A stretch of 64,000 bases of DNA from an uncultured bacterium (GCA_937943575.1 CALEAV010000038.1:1-64000), one strand, 5' to 3'; counted from the first letter of the stretch, positions 12,950-43,909 are shown. A program made the numbers and translations. Notes: generated from the letters alone by a model not told the origin.

Positions 12950-14206
12950 ATGCACAAAACCCCGCTGTTGGATCAATTGGAGAGCGGCCCGTGGCCCAGC
13001 TTCGTGACGGACCTGAAGCGGGTGGCCGCCCGGAAGCCGCAGACCGCGGACCTGTTGGGGGTTCTGGAGCGTTCCTACAAGGACAAGATCACCCATTGGA
13101 AGCATGGCGGCATCGTGGGCGTCCTGGGATACGGCTCCGGCATCATCGGCCGTTACACCGACCTGCCCGATGAATTTCCGGGCGTGGAACATTTCCACAC
13201 CATCCGGGTGAACCACCCCTCAGGGTGGGTCTACTCCACCAAAGCCCTGCGGGAGCTGATGGACATCTGGGATGAGCATGGCTCCTCCGTCTTGAACATG
13301 CATGGCTCCACCGGGGACATCATCTTTCTGGGCACCCGCACCGAGGAGCTGGAGCCCTGCTTTGCCAAGCTGACCTCCAAGGGCTGGGACCTGGGCGGCT
13401 CCGGGTCCGCCTTCCGGTCGCCCTCCTGCTGCATCGGCCCGGCCCGGTGCGAGTGGGCCATGTACGACACCATGGAGGCCTGCTACGAGCTCACCCAGGA
13501 GTTCCAGTTCGACCTGCACCGGCCCTCCTACCCCTATAAATACAAGCTGAAGCTCTCCGGCTGCCCCAATGACTGCGTGGCCGCGGTGGCCCGGGCCGAC
13601 TGCTCCGTCATCGGGGTGTGGAAGGACGACATCCGCATCGACCAGAGCGCGGTGCAGGCCTATGCCGGGGGCGAGCTCAAACCCCGGGGCGGCGCCACCA
13701 AGTGGGACAAACTGGACATCCAGAAGGACGTGGTGGAGCTCTGCCCCACCCAGTGCATGAGCTGGGACGGCAAGACCCTGAAGATCAACAACCGGGAATG
13801 CAACCACTGCATGCACTGCATCAACCTCATGCCCCAGGCGCTGCGGCCCGGCACCGAGCGGGGCGCCGCCTTCCTGCTGGGCTCCCATGCCCCCATCCTG
13901 GAGGGCGCCCAGATGAGCTGGGTCATCGTGCCCTTCATGGAGATGGAGAAGCCCTTCGACAACCTGAAGGAGCTCATGTCCAACATCGCCGAGTGGTGGT
14001 CTGAGCACGGCAAAAACCGGGAGCGGGTGGGCGAGCTCATCCTGCGGCTGGGCATGCGGTCGCTGCTGGAGGCCATCGGCGTGGAGCCGGCGCCCCAGCA
14101 GGTGCGCATCCCCCGGGCCAACCCCTTCTTCTTCTGGCATCAGTCGGACTTCGACGCCGAGGCCAAGGGCCGCCGTTACGACACCCGCCAGGGTTTCATC
14201 CGCTAA
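12950..14206 (+). CDS. dsrA: Dissimilatory sulfite reductase alpha subunit
   Basis: 'GSGSAFRSPSCCIGPARCEWAMYDT', 'LKLSGCPNDCVAAVARADCSVIG', ferredoxin-like 'NNRECNHCMHCINLMPQAL'. Confidence 0.98.
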   Translation: MHKTPLLDQLESGPWPSFVTDLKRVAARKPQTADLLGVLERSYKDKITHWKHGGIVGVLGYGSGIIGRYTDLPDEFPGVEHFHTIRVNHPSGWVYSTKALRELMDIWDEHGSSVLNMHGSTGDIIFLGTRTEELEPCFAKLTSKGWDLGGSGSAFRSPSCCIGPARCEWAMYDTMEACYELTQEFQFDLHRPSYPYKYKLKLSGCPNDCVAAVARADCSVIGVWKDDIRIDQSAVQAYAGGELKPRGGATKWDKLDIQKDVVELCPTQCMSWDGKTLKINNRECNHCMHCINLMPQALRPGTERGAAFLLGSHAPILEGAQMSWVIVPFMEMEKPFDNLKELMSNIAEWWSEHGKNRERVGELILRLGMRSLLEAIGVEPAPQQVRIPRANPFFFWHQSDFDAEAKGRRYDTRQGFIR

Positions 14207-14250
14207 GTTCCGGCCACCCAGGCCGTCAATTTTAAGGAGGACTGATTACC

Positions 14251-15330
14251 ATGACCGAACCCGAACGCAAAACCGATATCGGCCCGCCGCATTATGGGCA
14301 GTTTCTCCACCCGGTGATGAAGGCCAACTACGGCAAGTGGAAATACCATGAAATCCTGGAGCCCGGGGTCCTTATGCATGTCTCGGAGACCGGGGACAAG
14401 CTCTACTCCGTGCGGGTGGGCTCCGGCCGGCTGGTGAGCACCGACTTTGTCCGGGAGGCCTGCGACCTGGCGGACAAATACAGCGACGGCTACTTCCGCT
14501 TCACCAGCCGCCACAACATGGAATTCTTCCTCACCGATCTGTCCAAGCTGCCGGCCCTGAAGGCCGACCTGGCCGCCAAGGGCTGGCCCATCGGCGGCAC
14601 CGGGCATTCGGTGACCAGCATCGTCCACACCCAGGGCTGGGTGCACTGCCACACCCCGGCCATCGACGCCTCCGGCATCGTCAAGGCGGTGATGGACGAC
14701 CTCTTTGAGTATTTCGGCAAGCATGACCTGCCGGCCCAGGTGCGCATCGCCCTGGCCTGCTGCCTCAATATGTGCGGCGCGGTGCACTGCTCCGACATCG
14801 CCATCTGCGGCGTCCACCGCACCCCGCCCAAGGTGATGCATGACAAGCTGCGCCACCTGTGCGAAATCCCCACCACCATCGCCTCTTGCCCCACCGGCGC
14901 CATCCGGCCGCACCCGGACAAGAGCCTGAAGAGCGTCATCGTCAACGAAGAGCGCTGCATGTACTGCGGCAACTGCTACACCATGTGCCCGGCCATGCCC
15001 TGCTTCGACGCCGAAAAGGGCGGGGTGGCCATCCTGGTGGGCGGCAAGGTGTCCAACTCCAAGACCCCGCCGGCCTTCTCCCGGCTGGCCATCCCGTGGA
15101 TTCCCAACAATCCGCCCCGCTGGCCGGAAGTGGTGGCCGCCATCCGCAAGATCCTCACCAAATACGCCGAAGGCGCCAACAAGTGGGAGCGCGTCGGCGA
15201 GTGGATCGAGCGCATCGGCTGGGAGCGCTTCTTCGAGGTCTGCGACATCCCCTTCACCTTCCAGCATATTGACGACTATAAGTTCCAGGCGTATGATACT
15301 TATAGGACGTCGATGCATTTCAAATTCTGA
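14251..15330 (+). CDS. dsrB: Dissimilatory sulfite reductase beta subunit
   Basis: '[33 protein letters not shown]', '[18 protein letters not shown]', '[17 protein letters not shown]'. Confidence 0.98.
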
Positions 15331-33772: not shown

Positions 33773-34063
33773 ATGGCTAAGCCCACCGGCCACCCGGACC
33801 GGCCCACCCAGGAGATCCTCGCCCGCCTGCGGCGCATCGAAGGCCAGGTGCGTGGCCTCCAAGACATGATCCGCAAGGGGCGGGAGTGCGAGGCCGTCCT
33901 CACCCAGGTGCGGGCGGTGCAGGCGGCGCTGGCCGCCGTGGCCCGCCGGGTGCTGGAGCACTATCTGGAGGAATGCCAGAGGGAGTGGGAAGCGGAGCCC
34001 GACCCCCGGCTCCTGACGGAGAAGCTGCGGCACACCGTGGGCCTCCTCAGCAAATTTCTGTAG
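33773..34063 (+). CDS. CsoR/FrmR-family (DUF156) transcriptional repressor
   Basis: 'EILARLRRIEGQVRGLQDMIRKGRECEAVLTQVRAVQAALAAVARRVLEHYLEEC'. Confidence 0.92.
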   Translation: MAKPTGHPDRPTQEILARLRRIEGQVRGLQDMIRKGRECEAVLTQVRAVQAALAAVARRVLEHYLEECQREWEAEPDPRLLTEKLRHTVGLLSKFL

Positions 34064-34092
34064 CGGCTCACCGCCGTAATATAGGAGGAACT

Positions 34093-34536
34093 ATGAGCAC
34101 TGCCAAAGAGAAGGCCTGTTTCATCTGTTCCCGGGACACCCTGGACGGGGCCTACCCTTCCCTCATCCTGGGCATCAACGCCGCCCGCCTGGGGATGGAG
34201 GCCAAGGTCTTTTACACCTTCATGGGGGTGAACCTGGTGAAGAAAGGCGGCATTGAGAAGGCCAAATTCATCCCCCCGGGCCCCATGGGCGCGGTCCCGG
34301 GCATGGCCACCCTGGCCACCGCCATGATGAAGAAGAAGGCGGAGAAGGCCCAGATCCCCTCCCTGCCGGACCTGATGGAGATGGCGCAGCTGGAGGGGGT
34401 GGAGCTCATCGCCTGCCGCATGACCATCGACATGATGGAGATCCGGGAGGAGGAGATGCTGGAGGGGGTCCCGATCTGGACAGCCGAGGAGTTCCTCAAA
34501 TACGCCAAGGATGCCAAGATCTGCCTCTTCACCTAA
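34093..34536 (+). CDS. DsrE/DsrF-like family protein
   Basis: 'KACFICSRDTLDGAYPSLILGINAARLGMEAKVFYTFMGVNLVKK...GVELIACRMTIDMM' DsrE2-like; RBS AGGAGG upstream of ATG 34093. Confidence 0.82.
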   Translation: MSTAKEKACFICSRDTLDGAYPSLILGINAARLGMEAKVFYTFMGVNLVKKGGIEKAKFIPPGPMGAVPGMATLATAMMKKKAEKAQIPSLPDLMEMAQLEGVELIACRMTIDMMEIREEEMLEGVPIWTAEEFLKYAKDAKICLFT

Positions 34537-34800: not shown

Positions 34801-37188
34801 ATGGCCCAGGAAGCGGAAAAAGGCACCCACATCCCCTTACCCCCCCCTGCACCTCCGCTCCCCGCCCTTGGCTTGGAGAGCCCGGTCCAGTGCATCTCCT
34901 CGGAACCCTTCCGGACCATGGTGGAGGTGGCCCGGGACGGGATCTGCCTGGTGGATGCCACCGGGACCATCGTCTTCGTCAACCGGGGGTTTGCCCGACT
35001 GCTGGGGTGGGAGGTCTCCCAGCTGACCGGCCGGTCCCTCTTCGAGGTGGTGGTTCCGGAGCACCATGACCTCCTCACCGCCAAGCTGGAGCGGCGGCGC
35101 CGGGGGCTCTCGGACCTCTACGAAATGAGCCTGCGGCATCAGGAGGGCCGGGTGGTGCCCACCATGGTCTCCGCCGCGCCCATCATGGCGGAGGGCCGCT
35201 TCCTCGGGTCGGTGGCCATCTTCACCGACATCTCCGAGCAGAAGCGGGTGGAGCGGGAACTGCGGGAGACGGGCGAGTTCCTGGAGACCATCATCAACAG
35301 CATCACGGACAACCTCCTGGCCATCGACCCCCGCAGCTGCCGCATCATCCTGGCCAACCACTCCTTCCTGAGTCACATCCACAAGGACCGGGAGAGCGTC
35401 TATCACCGGCCGTGCTACGAAGTGCTCCACCACCGGCAGGGGCCCTGCCAGGAAGCCGGGCTCCTGTGCCCGGTACAGGAGAGCGCCAAACAGAAGCGCC
35501 AGGTGCTGGTGGACAAGAATTTTGTCAACAGCCAGGGCCAGCTGCGCACCTATCAGATCGCCGCCTATCCCCATTTCGGCCAGGACGGCGAGGTGGATCT
35601 GGTCATCTGTCTGGAGCGGGATGTCACCGACCGGCGCAAGATGGAAGAGGCCTTGGCCTTCCGCTCCCGGGAGCTGCAAAAGACCCAGGTGCAGCTGGAA
35701 AAACTCTTCGACATCGCCCGGGAGCGCACCGCCAAACGCTCGGTGCCGGAGCTCCTGCACTTCCTGCACCATCTTATGCTGGAGGCCTTTCCGGGGGCGG
35801 AGCCCATCTTTCTGCTCCTGGAGGGGGAGCAGCGGCTGCTGTCCCTGGAGGAGTGCGCCACCGGCCTGCAGGACGCCCAGCGCCGGGTGGTGCGCCGCCT
35901 GGAACAGGCGGGGCTTCTGGGGGATTTCCTGCGCCGCCTCACCGCCCTGCTGACCCCCCAGGTCATCACCTTTGCCGACCCCGACCTGCCGCCCTACTTC
36001 CGGCTCTTTTCCAACATCTACCCGAGCTGGCTGGCCATGCCCATCCTGGCGCACCAGGAGTCCCTGGGCCTCTTTCTTCTGGGTTTCCATCATCACCAGA
36101 GCTTCACCCGGGAGGACCTGCACTTCTGTCATGCCTGCTTTGCCCAGGTGGGCTGTTACCTCCGCTATCTCCTCCGGCAAAAGGGGCGGGAGCTGTTCCC
36201 CGAGGCCGGGCTGCCGGAGGTCACCGGCTACGGGGAGATCATCGGCCAGAGCAAGAAGATGCAGGAGGTCTACCAGCTCATCAACCTGGTGAGCGGCACC
36301 GACGCCACGGTGCTCATCACCGGGGAGAACGGCACCGGCAAGGAGCTGGTGGCCCGCACCATCCACCGCCAGAGCAAGCGCAGCCGGGGGCCCTTCGTGG
36401 TGGCCAACTGCTCCGCCTACTCCCCCACTCTCCTGGAGAGCGAGCTCTTCGGGCACGAGAAGGGGGCCTTCACCGGGGCCATCCGCCGCAAGAAGGGCCG
36501 CTTCGAGCTGGCCCAGGGGGGCACCCTGTTTCTGGATGAGATCGGCGACATCCCCCCGGCCACCCAGGTGCTGCTCCTGCGTTTCCTGCAGGACCACTGC
36601 TTCGAGCGGGTGGGGGGGGAGGTGACCATAGAGGCGGATGTGCGGGTGCTGGCGGCCACCAACAAGGACCTCTACCGGGAGGCGCAGCAGGGGCGCTTCC
36701 GGGACGACCTCTACTACCGCCTCAACGTCATCACCATCCACCTGCCGCCGTTGCGGGAGCGCAAGGAGGACATCCCCCTTTTGTGCCAGCACTTCCTCAA
36801 CAAGTACAACCTGAAGGAAGGCAAAAAGATCAGCAAGTTCTCCCCGGACGCCATGCAGGCCCTGATGGACTTCGACTGGCCGGGCAATGTCCGCCAGCTG
36901 GAGAACGCCATCAGCCATGCGGTGATCCTGGCCCAGGGGGAGATCATCCGGCGCCGCCACCTGCCCCGCTTCCTCAAGGAGGAGGGGGAGGAGGCGGTCT
37001 CCACCTCCTTGGCGGAGACGGAGCGCCGGCTGATTCTGCGGGTGCTCAAGGAGTCCTCCTGGAACAAGCACGAGGCGGCCCGGCGCCTCAAGGTGAGCCG
37101 CAGCACCCTGTACAGCAAGATTCGGCGTTATGGTCTGTCCCAGGGTCCGGCGGAAGGGTCCGAATCTGGACAGAGGCTAACCACTTGA
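34801..37188 (+). CDS. sigma54-dependent transcriptional activator with PAS sensor domains
   Basis: Two PAS domains, AAA+ with '[16 protein letters not shown]', '[10 protein letters not shown]' sigma54 loop, 'FLDEIGDIPPATQ', C-terminal Fis HTH 'EAARRLKVSRSTLYSKIRRYG'. Confidence 0.95.
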   Translation: MAQEAEKGTHIPLPPPAPPLPALGLESPVQCISSEPFRTMVEVARDGICLVDATGTIVFVNRGFARLLGWEVSQLTGRSLFEVVVPEHHDLLTAKLERRRRGLSDLYEMSLRHQEGRVVPTMVSAAPIMAEGRFLGSVAIFTDISEQKRVERELRETGEFLETIINSITDNLLAIDPRSCRIILANHSFLSHIHKDRESVYHRPCYEVLHHRQGPCQEAGLLCPVQESAKQKRQVLVDKNFVNSQGQLRTYQIAAYPHFGQDGEVDLVICLERDVTDRRKMEEALAFRSRELQKTQVQLEKLFDIARERTAKRSVPELLHFLHHLMLEAFPGAEPIFLLLEGEQRLLSLEECATGLQDAQRRVVRRLEQAGLLGDFLRRLTALLTPQVITFADPDLPPYFRLFSNIYPSWLAMPILAHQESLGLFLLGFHHHQSFTREDLHFCHACFAQVGCYLRYLLRQKGRELFPEAGLPEVTGYGEIIGQSKKMQEVYQLINLVSGTDATVLITGENGTGKELVARTIHRQSKRSRGPFVVANCSAYSPTLLESELFGHEKGAFTGAIRRKKGRFELAQGGTLFLDEIGDIPPATQVLLLRFLQDHCFERVGGEVTIEADVRVLAATNKDLYREAQQGRFRDDLYYRLNVITIHLPPLRERKEDIPLLCQHFLNKYNLKEGKKISKFSPDAMQALMDFDWPGNVRQLENAISHAVILAQGEIIRRRHLPRFLKEEGEEAVSTSLAETERRLILRVLKESSWNKHEAARRLKVSRSTLYSKIRRYGLSQGPAEGSESGQRLTT

Positions 37189-37209: not shown

Positions 37210-37349
37210 GTGTCCTTGTGGCAGATGTTTTTTTGGACGGTGCCGGGGTCCACCACCGCCCCCGGGCTCAGGGGGCCAAAAAAAATATTTCGGCCAGGGT
37301 CCAGAAATTCTTGAGGAAAAGCCGCCCCGGACCAGGCACCTGAGACCCC

Positions 37350-37365
37350 TGGCAAAGATTTTGTA
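37350..37365 (+). promoter_or_regulatory. Weak candidate sigma54 -24/-12 promoter
   Basis: TGGCAAAGATTTTGTA vs TGGCACGnnnnTTGCW; GG-N10-GT instead of GG-N10-GC. Confidence 0.3.
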
Positions 37366-37636
37366 ACAGGATGAGGAGGGGAGGAAGGCCGATGGTGGGG
37401 CCTCGGGCTTCCCTCCCCTCCTTGTGCAACCCGACCATCCCCCATAACTCAGGCGAAAGGAGGTGAGGTCAGGCTTTCTGCCCCCGCTCCGGACGGCCGG
37501 AGACGGGACGCCGGCAGGCAACCTTCAACCGGGAAGGCTGTGGCGAGCCCTGTGGCCGCCAGCCCCCCATGCCGTAACGGTAGGCATCTCCTGCATCACT
37601 CCTGGACGAACCACTTGCTGAATGGGAGGCCGCAAC

Positions 37637-39133
37637 ATGGCGAAAGAAAGAAGGGAAATCGAAATCAACAGTCGGGCTGACACCCTGCCGTTGATGGGGC
37701 CGGACGTCCGTCCCTGGCCCGTCACCCCGCCGCCTTCCCCGGAAGAGTGCATGAAGGTTTATGAGAAACGGAAGGCGGGGGAATTCGGGAAATTCCTGGA
37801 AGACAACCTGCGCCTGGATTACGTTTTCGAAAAGCCGGAAGCCCTCCAGGGCCTCAGGGTGCTGTGCAACGGCATCTGGCACATCAGCCGCATGTTCGCC
37901 ACCAGCCTGCTGGCCGAACAGGGTGCCGAGGCCATCCACATCGAGCCCCCCACCGGCGACCCGCTGCGCCAGCTCACCCCCTTCGGCCGGGAAGAGTACA
38001 TGCTGAAGGACAACGTCACCGGCGAGCCCTGCGGCCTGGATTTTCTCCATGAGTTCCGCAACGCCTACTCCATCACCCTGAACCTGGAGACCCCGGAGGG
38101 CCGGGAGATCTATAAGAAGCTGGCCATGCTGGTGGATGTCATCATCGAGTCCTGGCCGCCCGGCTACATGGACTCCCTGGGCATCGGCTACCGCCAGCTC
38201 TCCAAGCTCAATCCCAAGCTGGTCTACTGCTGGGTGGGGGAGCGCGGCCAGTGGGGCCCCATGAAGGATGAGGTCTCCAAATTCGGGCAGTGGATGCTGG
38301 ATCCCTTCTCCGCCTGCGCCAACTCCTGGGTGCACAACACCGGCTTCCCGCCCGACCAGTGCCCCCGGGGCGGCAAGGGCGGCGACCCCATGCGCTCCGG
38401 CGCCTGGCTGCCCTCCTATGTCTGCGGCGAGCAGGCGGCGGCCAGCATCCTGGCGGCCCTCTACTGGCGGGACTTCAACGGCGGCGGCGAAGGCCAGTTC
38501 ATTGAGGTGACCGCCGCGGAGTCCCTGATGGACATCCTGGACTTCGACATCACCTGGTACGGCTTCAACGCCTCCATCAAGGCCAGAACCGGCGCCTGGG
38601 ACCCCAACCTCAACCAGTACGAGTGGAACCCCTGCAAGGACGGTTACATGATGATCGGTGGCCAGACCGACCGGCTCTGGTACCGCATCGGCATGTGCAT
38701 TGAGCGGGACCTGCCCCTGTTCGGCCGCCTCATCCACGAAGACCCGCTCCTCAAGGAGATGGCCGCCAGAAACGCCCTGCAGGCCCTGATCAAGACCTAC
38801 ACCGTCACCACCAAGTGGCTCAGGGACATCAACCGCATTGAGGCCGAGCAGAAGCTGATGGAATACGAGATCGCCGCCGGCCCGGTGCTCTACATCGACG
38901 AAGTGGCGGAGTTCCCGCACTTCAAGTATCGCCCCTGGGTGAACACCAAAGAGACTCAGTTCTACGGCACGGTGATGTACTCCGAGTCCTGCGGGGCCTT
39001 CCAGCACCGCACCCCGGCCCGGGTGAAGGATCTGGGACGGCCGCTGGGCTATGACAACGGCGAGGTCTACAAAAAATACCTGGGTTACGGCCCCATGAAG
39101 CTCCGGGAACTCAAGGCGAAGGGGGTAATCTAA
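37637..39133 (+). CDS. Class III (CaiB/BaiF) CoA-transferase, divergent subunit
   Basis: '[39 protein letters not shown]', '[41 protein letters not shown]' CoA-transferase III pattern. Confidence 0.88.
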
Positions 39134-40564
39134 ATGGATTGGGAAAAAGAAATCCAGAAGCTGAAGGTGTGCGACTTCGAGGAACTTCCGGGCCCCAAGA
39201 GCAAGGAAGAGCTCGAAGAGATGAAGATGCCCTTCGAGGACTACTGCAAGCGGGTCTTCGATCCGGGCAACGAGTTCGTCAAGCCCGAGGCCCTGAAGGG
39301 CATCCGCTGGATGTCCACCACCATGTACATCTTCACCCCCCATTCGGTGGCCAACCTGGCGGAGCTGGGGGCGGAGTGCATCAAGATCGAGATGCCCCGC
39401 ATGGGCGACCCCATGCGCCACACCTCCCCCTTCAACGAGGCCTACCTCTACCCGCTGCATGACACCCGGCCCATGACCGGGACGGGCTTGGGCTTCACCA
39501 ACGCCAACGTCAATGAATATTTTATCACCCTGGACTACCACGTGCCGGAGGCCAAACCCATCTTCTACAACCTGGTGAAGATGAGCGACGGCCTCACCGA
39601 GTGCTACCGCCACGGCACCTTCGACCGCTGGAAGCAGGGCTACCGCCACGTCATGGAGATCAACCCCCGCTTCATCTACGTCTGGGGCGGCGGCTTCGGC
39701 TACGGCCCCAAGATCTTCGGCGGCTCCTATGACATCCTGGGCCAGGCCCACGCCGGCTTGGCCAGCATCACCGGCTGCCATGAGGACATGGGAGGCCACG
39801 CCACCAAGGCCACCAACTGGGTCATCGACTGGTATTCCGGCACCCAGATCACCGTGGCCATCCTGGCGGCCCTCTACTGGCGGGGCAAGACCGGGCTGGG
39901 CACCATGATCGAGTTCTCCCAGGTGCAGGCCGCCACCCGCATGATGGGCTATGCCGCGCCGCTGTACGGCCGCTTCGGCATCGTCCGCCAGCGCTGGGGC
40001 AACTGGGACACCCAGCTCTGCGTCCACGGCATCATCATGACCGGCAAGGTGGACTTCCCGGACGCCCAGAATCCCCAGGACCGGTTCGAGTCCCGCTACG
40101 TCATGGTGAGCGCCTTCCAGGACGCCGATTTCCAGGAGCTGTGCAACGTCATCAAGAAGCCGGACCTCTACAGCCGCTACAAGACCCACAAGGAGCGGGT
40201 GGGCGCCCCGGCCCAGATCGAGATCTACAAGGCCATCGAGGACTGGGCGGCGGACAAGACCCGGTCCGAGGTGGTGCGCATCCTGAGGGAGGCGGGCATC
40301 CTGGCGGCGCCGGTGATGAATGACCGGGAAGTCTATGAGTGCGAGCATTACCGGCTGCGGGGCACGGTGCGCTGGAATGACGACCCGCTCTTCGGGGACA
40401 TTCTGATTCATAGCGGCTACAGCACCGGCCTGATGTCCAAGACCCCCCGGCGGCATCGCTGGCAGTGGCGGCCGGTGGGCGCGGACAACGTCAAGATCTA
40501 CCACGAACTCCTGGGCTACCCGATGAGCAAGATCCAGGAACTCTATGACAAGAACATCATCTAG
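39134..40564 (+). CDS. Class III (CaiB/BaiF) CoA-transferase, canonical active-site context
   Basis: '[29 protein letters not shown]', '[16 protein letters not shown]...[18 protein letters not shown]'; directly follows the first CoA-transferase. Confidence 0.9.
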
Positions 40565-40581
40565 GCAGGGGGGTGAGACGC

Positions 40582-41070
40582 ATGTGTGACATCATCTGGT
40601 GCAAAAAGGATCTGGGTGACGGGAAGGTCTGCGACACCGTCAACTACCTCGACCCCTACTGCTTCTGGAACTGGGAAGGCAAGGTGGCCTGTGCCCACTG
40701 CGGCACGGTCTACTACATCCACATGATCCAGGGCCACATGTATGCCGGTCCGGATGAGAAACCGGGCGAGAAGCCGGACATCTACCCCCTGTATGCGGAC
40801 CAGCCCAACAACGGCTACTTCAACTACCTCCCCGGGATTGAGGGCCGCACCCGGCCCTACACCTGCCTGCCGCGCCACATCTACCTGGGCAAGGCGGACA
40901 TGGTGAAGTTCAGCATCCGGGGGCGGCCGGTGCGGGGCTGGCGGCCGCAGCCGCCGTCCGCCGGCATCGCCGGCTCCCAGGGTTTCTTCTGGGACATCGA
41001 GAAGCTCTCTCCTGAGGTCTGGGAAGAATATCAGGAGAGGATCCGCAAAGGCGAAGTCAAGGACTGGTAA
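40582..41070 (+). CDS. Cys-rich protein of unknown function in the CoA-transferase operon
   Basis: 'MCDIIWCKKDLGDGKVCDTVNYLDPYCFWNWEGKVACAHCGTVYYIH'; RBS-like GGGGGGTGAG; codon use consistent with the operon. Confidence 0.75.
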   Translation: MCDIIWCKKDLGDGKVCDTVNYLDPYCFWNWEGKVACAHCGTVYYIHMIQGHMYAGPDEKPGEKPDIYPLYADQPNNGYFNYLPGIEGRTRPYTCLPRHIYLGKADMVKFSIRGRPVRGWRPQPPSAGIAGSQGFFWDIEKLSPEVWEEYQERIRKGEVKDW

Positions 41071-41085
41071 GGGGAGGAGCGACGC

Positions 41086-41325
41086 ATGAGTGGCCACACC
41101 CAAAAGATGACCCCGGTGGAATTTCTGGCGCACGTGCTGACGCCGGAAAAGAAGACCGACCATATCTGCTGGCAGTGCAAGTACCTGAAATGGGTGCTCA
41201 AGGGCTCCGGCTTCCCGCCCGCCGACATCATCGGCTGGTGCAAGAAGATCCACTGGCCCCATTACTGGTGCATCCACGAAAACGACATCATCAAGAAGTG
41301 CTATGCCTTTGAGCAGAAAGCCTGA
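41086..41325 (+). CDS. Small Cys/Trp-rich protein, putative HiPIP-like Fe-S or Zn subunit
   Basis: 'HICWQCKYLKWVLKGSGFPPADIIGWCKKIHWPHYWCIHENDIIKKCYAFE'; five Cys. Confidence 0.75.
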   Translation: MSGHTQKMTPVEFLAHVLTPEKKTDHICWQCKYLKWVLKGSGFPPADIIGWCKKIHWPHYWCIHENDIIKKCYAFEQKA

Positions 41326-41662
41326 TCTGGATCCGGAAATCCGCCGCCAGCACGGGGTGGAGGAGCTGGATCACCTGCGCCGCCGGGTGGGCCTCTGGCG
41401 GGAGGACTTCCTCCGCCAGGCGCCCCCCGGGGGCGGCCGGGAATGGCTCTTCCTGGTGCGGGAATTCCACGCCGAGATCGACGAGTGGCTCTACCCCTAC
41501 GTCCGCCGGCTGGTGGAAACCGAGCACATCACCGCCGTGGAGGGCGCCGATTTCATGGATTACTGCTACCGCCAGGTCCTGATGGTGGCACACCACCTCG
41601 GCATCATCGAGGATGTCCCGGAAGGGGCCGGATTTGACGCACTGCCTGTGATCTACCGCTAA
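41303..41662 (+). CDS. Small helical protein of unknown function
   Basis: Start overlaps the preceding ORF by 23 bp; ends 9 bp before the next ORF's in-frame start region; operon-like packing. Confidence 0.68.
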   Translation: MPLSRKPDLDPEIRRQHGVEELDHLRRRVGLWREDFLRQAPPGGGREWLFLVREFHAEIDEWLYPYVRRLVETEHITAVEGADFMDYCYRQVLMVAHHLGIIEDVPEGAGFDALPVIYR

Positions 41663-41676
41663 CAAGGAGGGTGAGC

Positions 41677-42111
41677 ATGCCCGAACTCGTTCGTGTCAGT
41701 GTGTGCGGCTTTGACCCCATGCTCGTCCGGGGTTATGTGAAGACCGGCTTTCGGGCCCTGTGGTTCTATCTCCCCGACGAGCTCTATGAAGACTACGACG
41801 TCCAGATCGGGGACAAGATCCAGGGGAAACTCCTGAAGGTCATCAACCCCAAAGAGGAAGTGACCTTCACCCCCAATGAGGCCTTTGAGTGGGATACCAG
41901 CAAGGAGACCGGCTATGCCGTGGTCATCCCGGGCGAGGCCATCACCAAGTACGAGCTCACCGAGTTCCACTTCATCGAGATGGAACTGACCCACATCGTC
42001 ACCAAGACGGGTGAGGTGAAAGAGATCTATCCCGGTGAGACCAAAAAGCGGAAATGGTGGCCGGACGGCAAGATGAAGCTGAGCTACTTCCTGCCCTACG
42101 CCGCGCCGTAA
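41677..42111 (+). CDS. Protein of unknown function (probable beta-rich) in the CoA-transferase operon
   Basis: RBS AAGGAGGGTGAGC then ATG; 'MPELVRVSVCGFDPMLVRGYVKTGFRALWFYLPDELYEDYDVQIGDKIQGKLLKVINPK'. Confidence 0.75.
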   Translation: MPELVRVSVCGFDPMLVRGYVKTGFRALWFYLPDELYEDYDVQIGDKIQGKLLKVINPKEEVTFTPNEAFEWDTSKETGYAVVIPGEAITKYELTEFHFIEMELTHIVTKTGEVKEIYPGETKKRKWWPDGKMKLSYFLPYAAP

Positions 42112-42130
42112 CGCCACCCATCTCTGCCGC

Positions 42131-42154
42131 GGCCCCCTCCCCCGGGAGGGGGCC
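42131..42154. repeat. Strong C/G palindrome GGCCCCCTCCC-CC-GGGAGGGGGCC
   Basis: Perfect 11-bp arms in the intergenic region; possible operon end or REP-like element. Confidence 0.6.
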
Positions 42155-42301
42155 GCCCTTCTCTCCGCCCGGGGTCTCCTCCCTCCTCCTGCCGCGCCGC
42201 CGCCACTCCGGGACCGGAGTCCTGCCACATCAGGGTTGACGGATGCCGGACCAAAACCCCGGCATTCAGAAGAGCCAAACCTATCACAGAGAGGTGAGGT
42301 C

Positions 42302-42616: not shown

Positions 42617-42730
42617 GGCCCAGGTGCTATACTGCCACCAGGCACCCGGCAGGTAATGCAAATCCCCTTCTCCTCCTCTCCGGCGGATGAAGGGGATTAT
42701 TTCGAGGTACCAAGGAGATCCTCACACCCC

Positions 42731-43909
42731 ATGACCGAGCCCACCGACTTTGAACTGCACACCCAGGAGGACTGGACCCCTTTAAGCGAGCTCACCGGCA
42801 TCCAGGAGCCCCTCTTTGAGGCCACCCTGTTTCTCTTCGGCTACGACTTTTCCAGCAATATCTACCTGCTGCAGGGTCCCGGGGGGCATGCCATCATCGA
42901 CCCGGGCAATGACTACCCCGCCTATATGCAGATGGTGGAGCGGGGCATCAAGCCCACCGAGATCAAAAAGATCGCCGTCACCCACGGCCATCACGACCAC
43001 GTCATGGGGGCCATCGAGCTCTTCCGGGGCCACCGGGGCTTCGGGACGCCGGAGCTGGAGATCATCCTCCATGAGGCGGGCCCGGTGGAATTCAAGGAGA
43101 TGATGCGGAACCTGGGCTGCCGCCTCACGGAGGTGAAAGGCGGGGAGACCATCGTCCTGGCGGGCTTTGAGCTGGAGGTCATCCACACCCCGGGGCACAC
43201 CATCGACGGCCTCTGTTTCTACCATGCCCCCAGCCGCACCCTGTTCAGCGGCGACACGGTGCTGCCCACCATCCTGGCGGAGCCCGATGAAAAGGCGGCG
43301 GGCGGCAGCCTGGCGCACTATTTTTACTCCTTAAGGGTGCTCCGCCAGCGGCAGATCGACCATGTCCTCCCGGGGCACGGCGGGGTGGCCCCCAACCTCG
43401 GCCGCTTTGTGGTGGATGAGACCTATGACGCCCTGATCAAGCGGGTGGTGGGCCTGGAGACCCCTTTCTTTGAGGGCGCCGCCAAGTTAGCACAGCAGGG
43501 GCTCCTGGAGGAGGCCCTCTTTTACCTGGACAAGGAATTGCGGCAGGAAAACCCCCATCCCCAGGCCCGGGAGATGAAGGGCTTTCTCCTCAATGATCTG
43601 GGCCGGGGCCAGGAAGCCCTGGAGATCTTGGACGAGCTGCTCCGTCAGGACCCCGACCATGCCCAAGCCCTCCTGGGGAAGGGGGTGGCCCTCCTGGGTC
43701 TGGGGCGGTATGCCGACAGCCTGGCCGCTCTGGAGCGGGTGGCGGCCCTGCGTCCGGATCTGAAGGAGGTCCAGGTCTATCAGGGGATGGCCCTCTACCT
43801 CTCCGGCCGGGAGGCGGAGGCCCTGGATCTCCCCGCCTTCGCCGAGGAGTTCACCCGGCGGCTCAAGGATGAGCTGTCCCGCCTGGCCCACAGCCGGCCT
43901 TCCTCCTGA
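42731..43909 (+). CDS. Metallo-beta-lactamase-fold hydrolase with C-terminal TPR repeats
   Basis: 'VTHGHHDHVMGAIELF' HxHxDH, 'HTPGHTIDGLCFY', 'LFSGDTVLP', 'VLPGHGG'; C-terminal TPR-like repeats. Confidence 0.9.
   Translation: MTEPTDFELHTQEDWTPLSELTGIQEPLFEATLFLFGYDFSSNIYLLQGPGGHAIIDPGNDYPAYMQMVERGIKPTEIKKIAVTHGHHDHVMGAIELFRGHRGFGTPELEIILHEAGPVEFKEMMRNLGCRLTEVKGGETIVLAGFELEVIHTPGHTIDGLCFYHAPSRTLFSGDTVLPTILAEPDEKAAGGSLAHYFYSLRVLRQRQIDHVLPGHGGVAPNLGRFVVDETYDALIKRVVGLETPFFEGAAKLAQQGLLEEALFYLDKELRQENPHPQAREMKGFLLNDLGRGQEALEILDELLRQDPDHAQALLGKGVALLGLGRYADSLAALERVAALRPDLKEVQVYQGMALYLSGREAEALDLPAFAEEFTRRLKDELSRLAHSRPSS

Follow-up and report, generated by a model that had tools for sequence, protein, structure and literature searches.

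A conserved six-gene block in uncultured and sulfate-reducing bacteria links two class III CoA-transferases to four small protein families and may encode a multi-subunit CoA-transferase

Why are two genes for class III coenzyme A (CoA)-transferases packed together with four small genes that fit no protein family with confidence? The question is raised by a stretch of 64,000 nt from an uncultured bacterium (GCA_937943575.1 CALEAV010000038.1:1-64000), here called the window, in which six genes on one strand, named CoT1, CoT2 and P3 to P6, follow the gene of a sigma-54-dependent activator. We propose that the six genes would together specify one multi-subunit class III acyl-CoA:carboxylate CoA-transferase, coupled to an acyl-CoA ligase and serving an imported acid. 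Judging from the sequences, we give this reading a probability of roughly 55%. No published description of the operon was found in literature searches.

The block had been picked out in an earlier reading of the sequence alone, and open reading frame (ORF) calls bore out its six plus-strand ORFs, coordinates included (Table 1). Two of the sizes given there for the small proteins (163, 79, 119 and 145 aa) were right, those of P4 and P5, and the other two were corrected to 162 aa (P3) and 144 aa (P6) because the claimed spans had counted the stop codon. The genes are separated by 0 bp (CoT1 to CoT2), 17 bp (CoT2 to P3), 15 bp (P3 to P4) and 14 bp (P5 to P6), P4 and P5 overlap by 23 bp, and an alternative start of CoT1 at 37622 is possible, which would give a protein of 503 aa. 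Of the 46 distinct loci with enough flanking sequence, 43 contain all six genes in unchanged order. The remaining three are a partly masked locus, one from which only the C-terminal part of CoT1 was recovered and one without a detected P5. The P4 proteins of all main-clade relatives share 53–99% identity with that of the window. Because of the retained order and this degree of identity, the block is more than a chance cluster. The sequence-only reading had staked itself in advance on the small genes being conserved alongside the CoA-transferases, and they are. In relatives the recurring order is activator, CoT1, CoT2, P3, P4, P5, P6 and a protein of the metallo-beta-lactamase (MBL) fold; the gene for the latter, which also has TPR repeats, follows the block on the same strand in 47 of 52 loci.

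A profile of P3 picked up 39 carriers among 395 genomes from the phylum, and a scan of named genomes returned 67 loci, including those of Desulfoferrobacter suflitae and Eth-SRB2, the latter with two loci. Carriers were found in the Desulfobacterota (Desulfobacca, Desulfoferrobacter, Eth-SRB2) and among metagenome-assembled and single-amplified genomes labelled Methylomirabilota, Acidobacteria and Nitrospinae. Within the Methylomirabilota, P4 is present in only 2 of 95 genomes, both already among the known loci, and the module is therefore sporadic in that group. This sporadic occurrence suggests that the module has probably been transferred horizontally. In the window genome, the CoT pair of the window is the sole match to a CoT2 profile. 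The window also contains two adjacent NIR_SIR-domain genes resembling dsrAB (13400–15255), and its host is thus a probable sulfate reducer. A strict tie of the operon to sulfate reduction was rejected, as NIR_SIR (dsrAB-type) genes occur in 14 of 16 operon-bearing genomes and in 0 of the 2 genomes of the group labelled f28.

The assignment of the first two genes to the CaiB/BaiF CoA-transferases holds, both products matching PF02515 with 207 bits (CoT1) and 226 bits (CoT2) against a curated cut-off of 23.3. The two proteins are about 30% identical to each other, and CoT1 carries an N-terminal extension of approximately 68 aa. In CoT2, Asp200 within the motif GSYDILGQA is invariant both in an alignment that includes paralogues and in 57 of 57 main-clade members, and it falls in one column with the Asp of the formyl-CoA transferase 10uh. 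CoT1, when aligned with CoT2, is without the canonical catalytic Asp motif. This pattern points to CoT2 as the putative catalytic chain, with Asp200 as covalent acyl carrier, and to CoT1 as its presumptive partner chain. The same fold could also serve another CoA-ester reaction, as isomerase, racemase or intramolecular CoA-transferase, for which 2-methylfumaryl-CoA isomerase, alpha-methylacyl-CoA racemase and ThnP of naphthalene degradation offer models. Racemases and isomerases share the fold and also weakly match the profiles, and the publication of an intramolecular class III CoA-transferase (PMC11659651) counts for such a reaction. However, the Asp of CoT2 sits in a transferase motif, and CoT2 scores better against transferases than against racemases; we consider such a reaction unlikely.

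A parallel had been drawn to BbsEF, the succinyl-CoA:(R)-benzylsuccinate CoA-transferase (PDB 9fn0). It stands insofar as both systems are heteromeric class III pairs of two different chains encoded by adjacent genes, and one BbsEF chain appears degenerate, as here, because chain B of 9fn0 is without the Asp in the alignment. It does not extend to the sequences, which are only distantly related: CoT1 and CoT2 have better-matching relatives than the 9fn0 chains, and N-terminal extensions are present in the operon described here. To our knowledge, BbsEF has no zinc-ribbon, iron-sulfur or barrel subunits. No bbs/bss pathway genes were found in the operon or its immediate flanks. A search of 148 genomes for the BssB family PF18512 gave no match and is uninformative, the controls having been silent too.

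The four small proteins had been said to match no family, and searches of Pfam and NCBIfam indeed gave zero matches over the curated cut-offs; querying the PDB with the sequences of P3, P4 and P6 gave no significant match either. In P3, C17, C37 and C40 are invariant and C7 shifts to the CxxC pair of the paralogues, and from these four conserved cysteines a zinc-ribbon-like protein is plausible. In P4, C28, C31, C52 and C72 are invariant in an alignment of 63 sequences. A likeness of P4 to the small subunits of benzylsuccinate synthase (BSS) was suspected from the Cys pattern ahead of the fold search, in which BSS gamma (9pzj_C) was the sole PDB match, and a weak one (E 1.4, probability 0.23). 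The family PF18524 (HPIP_like) weakly matched 2 of 8 homologues, with a best E of 0.024, and matched none of the 63 main-clade P4 members. BSS beta and gamma and the small subunits of 4-hydroxyphenylacetate decarboxylase are proteins of 7–10 kDa with a four-Cys [4Fe-4S] site like that of high-potential iron-sulfur proteins (HiPIP), and are carried on a larger enzyme (PMC12590467). P4 resembles them in its four cysteines and in the weak fold match to BSS gamma, but these subunits serve glycyl radical enzymes, not CoA-transferases, and P4 has no significant sequence match. Tentatively, P4 may be a HiPIP-like iron-sulfur subunit. What stands of the Zn or Fe-S cofactor suggested earlier is its plausibility for P3 and P4, given the Cys conservation and the weak family and fold matches. 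The identity of P5 within the order is 30–94%. P6, modelled from 58 sequences with a mean predicted local distance difference test (pLDDT) score of 91, is predicted to adopt the fold of PHS018 and the AbrB-type cradle-loop barrels, to which it has no sequence match; its best PDB fold match is PHS018 itself (2glw, probability 0.99, E 0.06, TM 0.61 by target).

Diverged second copies of the operon bear on which of these proteins belong to its core. The Desulfobaccales possess an additional diverged cassette, CoT1'-CoT2'-P3', and in f28 and Methylomirabilota genomes a second operon has the order CoT1'-CoT2'-P3'-[P4']-124 aa-ligase. By reading the gaps between genes, a P4 homologue was found in both the f28 and the Desulfobaccales second versions, with the same four cysteines as in the main clade; C28, C31, G50, C52, P58 and C72 are common to all P4 versions. 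Since the second operons include a P4 homologue, the conserved core comprises four genes, CoT1-CoT2-P3-P4. P5 and P6 are missing from the second version. Downstream of the second cassette, three Desulfobaccales loci encode a 105-aa protein, a DeoC/LacD-type aldolase and a zinc alcohol dehydrogenase. The 124-aa protein between P4' and the ligase, seen in seven loci, is without a Pfam match, and in one Methylomirabilota locus the second operon is flanked by two IclR-type regulators.

The distribution of the small genes also bears on whether their products are subunits at all, as they could be separate enzymes, chaperones or regulators that merely share a regulon with the CoT pair. The pace at which P5 evolves, the resemblance of P6 to AbrB-like cradle-loop barrels, a group that includes DNA-binding proteins, and the existence of an operon version without P5 and P6 would all suit such an arrangement. 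However, P3 and P4 accompany the pair in all versions, even the most diverged, and we doubt that the small proteins act separately.

A further partner is found outside the six genes. An AMP-forming acyl-CoA ligase is present in 38 of the 395 phylum genomes (E <= 1e-140) and the operon in 39, with both in 34 (hypergeometric p 3e-39, kinship ignored), and the ligase list and the operon list name the same nine families. One f28 genome has the ligase in its locus, yet is absent from the ligase list at this threshold. In the scan of named genomes, 11 of 12 further operon-bearing genomes contained the ligase. The gene lies near the six-gene operon in at least six loci, right next to it in several genomes, and closes the second operon; at other sites it adjoins an MBL protein, LivK/LivH-type genes of a Liv-type ABC transporter and a CBS protein.

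The ligase resembles anthranilate- and benzoate-CoA ligases and scores 296 bits against the benzoate-CoA ligase family, below the cut-off of 375. Heteromeric class III pairs that are already known act on aromatic acids. Both points count for a role in anaerobic aromatic degradation via benzoyl-CoA, in which the ligase would activate aromatic acids and the pair would act as a BbsEF-like transferase. However, the ring-opening 6-oxocyclohex-1-ene-1-carbonyl-CoA hydrolase of that pathway (TIGR03200) was over its cut-off in just 1 of the 16 operon-bearing genomes, and this was not the window genome; the benzoyl-CoA route is thereby partly refuted and improbable. An enzyme of an oxalate/formyl-CoA cycle is largely refuted and very improbable, for although the closest relatives in the PDB and NCBIfam include formyl-CoA transferases, these matches lie far below cut-off, and oxalyl-CoA decarboxylase (TIGR03254) was over its cut-off in 0 of the 16 genomes. 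A likeness by gene content exists with the 'Magic' cluster of ORM2a, from a methanogenic benzene-degrading culture. The cluster shares an AMP-binding protein, a type III CoA-transferase pair and small unassigned proteins, and it also holds FAD oxidoreductases, an Fe-S protein and MaoC proteins (PMC13101534).

In the multi-subunit CoA-transferase that we favour, P3, with its putative zinc ribbon, and P4, with four cysteines and possibly a HiPIP-like [4Fe-4S] cluster, would be core accessory subunits holding or gating the CoT pair, and P5 and P6 would be further accessory proteins of the six-gene version. The complex would swap CoA between acids, and its pathway would also employ the co-inherited AMP-forming ligase; the acid would probably enter via the Liv-type ABC transporter, and sigma-54 and the adjacent activator would turn the operon on. 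The sequence-only reading had envisaged a module for CoA activation or dehydrogenation, of which a conserved multi-gene CoA-transferase module survives and dehydrogenation is not supported, the operon being without a dehydrogenase. To that reading we add the partner ligase, a second version of the operon and a distribution that reaches outside the Desulfobacterota.

Several observations weigh against this proposal. The ligase of the window genome is on a different contig, and in the Syntrophobacteraceae family three genomes carry the ligase but neither P3 nor the operon, so that ligase and operon are not strictly interdependent. Most CoT1 members have an acidic residue (D or E) close to the catalytic column, and CoT1 may therefore not be inactive. 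The PDB relatives of CoT1 and CoT2 are distant. For P4, the iron-sulfur identity draws on three weak hints, with Zn equally possible, and its model reached a pLDDT of only 69. The rapid divergence of P5 likewise fits poorly.

Table 1. Features of the six-gene block and its flanks in the window
Feature	Coordinates	Strand	Evidence or remark
Sigma-54-dependent activator (PAS-PAS-GAF-AAA+-Fis HTH)	34801..37188	+	Pfam Sigma54_activat E 4e-70, PAS, GAF, HTH_8
Putative sigma-54 -24/-12 promoter CTGGCAAAGATTTTGTA	37349..37365	+	288 bp before gene 1
GGAGGTGA element, presumed 5' leader	37459..37466	+	exact octamer
CoT1, class III CoA-transferase-fold subunit, 498 aa	37637..39133	+	PF02515 E 5.7e-61
CoT2, class III CoA-transferase, 476 aa	39134..40564	+	PF02515 E 7.3e-67
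P3, zinc-ribbon-like, 162 aa	40582..41070	+	conserved Cys; weak zinc-ribbon matches in Pfam
P4, tentative HiPIP-like Fe-S subunit, 79 aa	41086..41325	+	four invariant Cys
P5, fast-evolving, no known family, 119 aa	41303..41662	+	Pfam matches at chance level only
P6, predicted cradle-loop (RIFT/AbrB-like) beta barrel, 144 aa	41677..42111	+	AlphaFold2 model
GC-rich 12-bp hairpin after P6, without U tract	42129..42156	+	fold z -1.72
MBL-fold hydrolase with TPR repeats	42656..43909	+	Pfam Lactamase_B E 3e-22, TPR; usual downstream companion

The sigma-54 activator noted ahead of the block is confirmed by its domains, and it is likely the regulator of the operon. Its stop codon lies 448 bp from gene 1, and among 42 loci with sufficient flanking sequence, 24 have a homologue with at least 38% identity ahead of the operon on the same strand. 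Shuffling predicts the pattern GGCA-N6-TTG[CTA][AT] in 0.6 of 48 upstream regions; it occurs in 17, and its position is conserved within the order. The window copy has GT as its -12 element, the consensus being GC, and is by itself not significant (p 0.095). The octamer GGAGGTGA, a perfect anti-Shine-Dalgarno complement, would be expected in 0.5 of the 48 upstream regions but is present in 30, at a distance of 80–350 nt from CoT1. Neither a shared RNA fold nor, on inspection, a consistent leader ORF was found in the leaders with this element, and an Rfam search of the leader gave nothing beyond chance. The hairpin that follows P6 is a possible operon end. Two ORFs conserved in the genus lie before the activator (33773–34536), one small, helical and regulator-like, resembling CsoR by eye, and the other DsrE-like.

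Known in this system is the catalytic fold; what travels with that fold across phyla is a set of four small families lacking any confident match, together with a co-inherited, dedicated ligase. We know of no class III CoA-transferase with zinc or iron-sulfur subunits. That this one needs both kinds of subunit, that its transfer rests on or is gated by a complex sensitive to redox state or metal, and that it belongs to a sporadic pathway, probably spread by horizontal transfer, whose carboxylic acid is so far unrecognised, is a possibility that we advance tentatively. If the small proteins are subunits, they would constitute a new CoA-transferase architecture. The module would then mark an undescribed organic-acid route in sulfate reducers and in the partners of ethane-oxidising archaea, and the ligase and the ABC transporter provide a concrete handle for finding its substrate.

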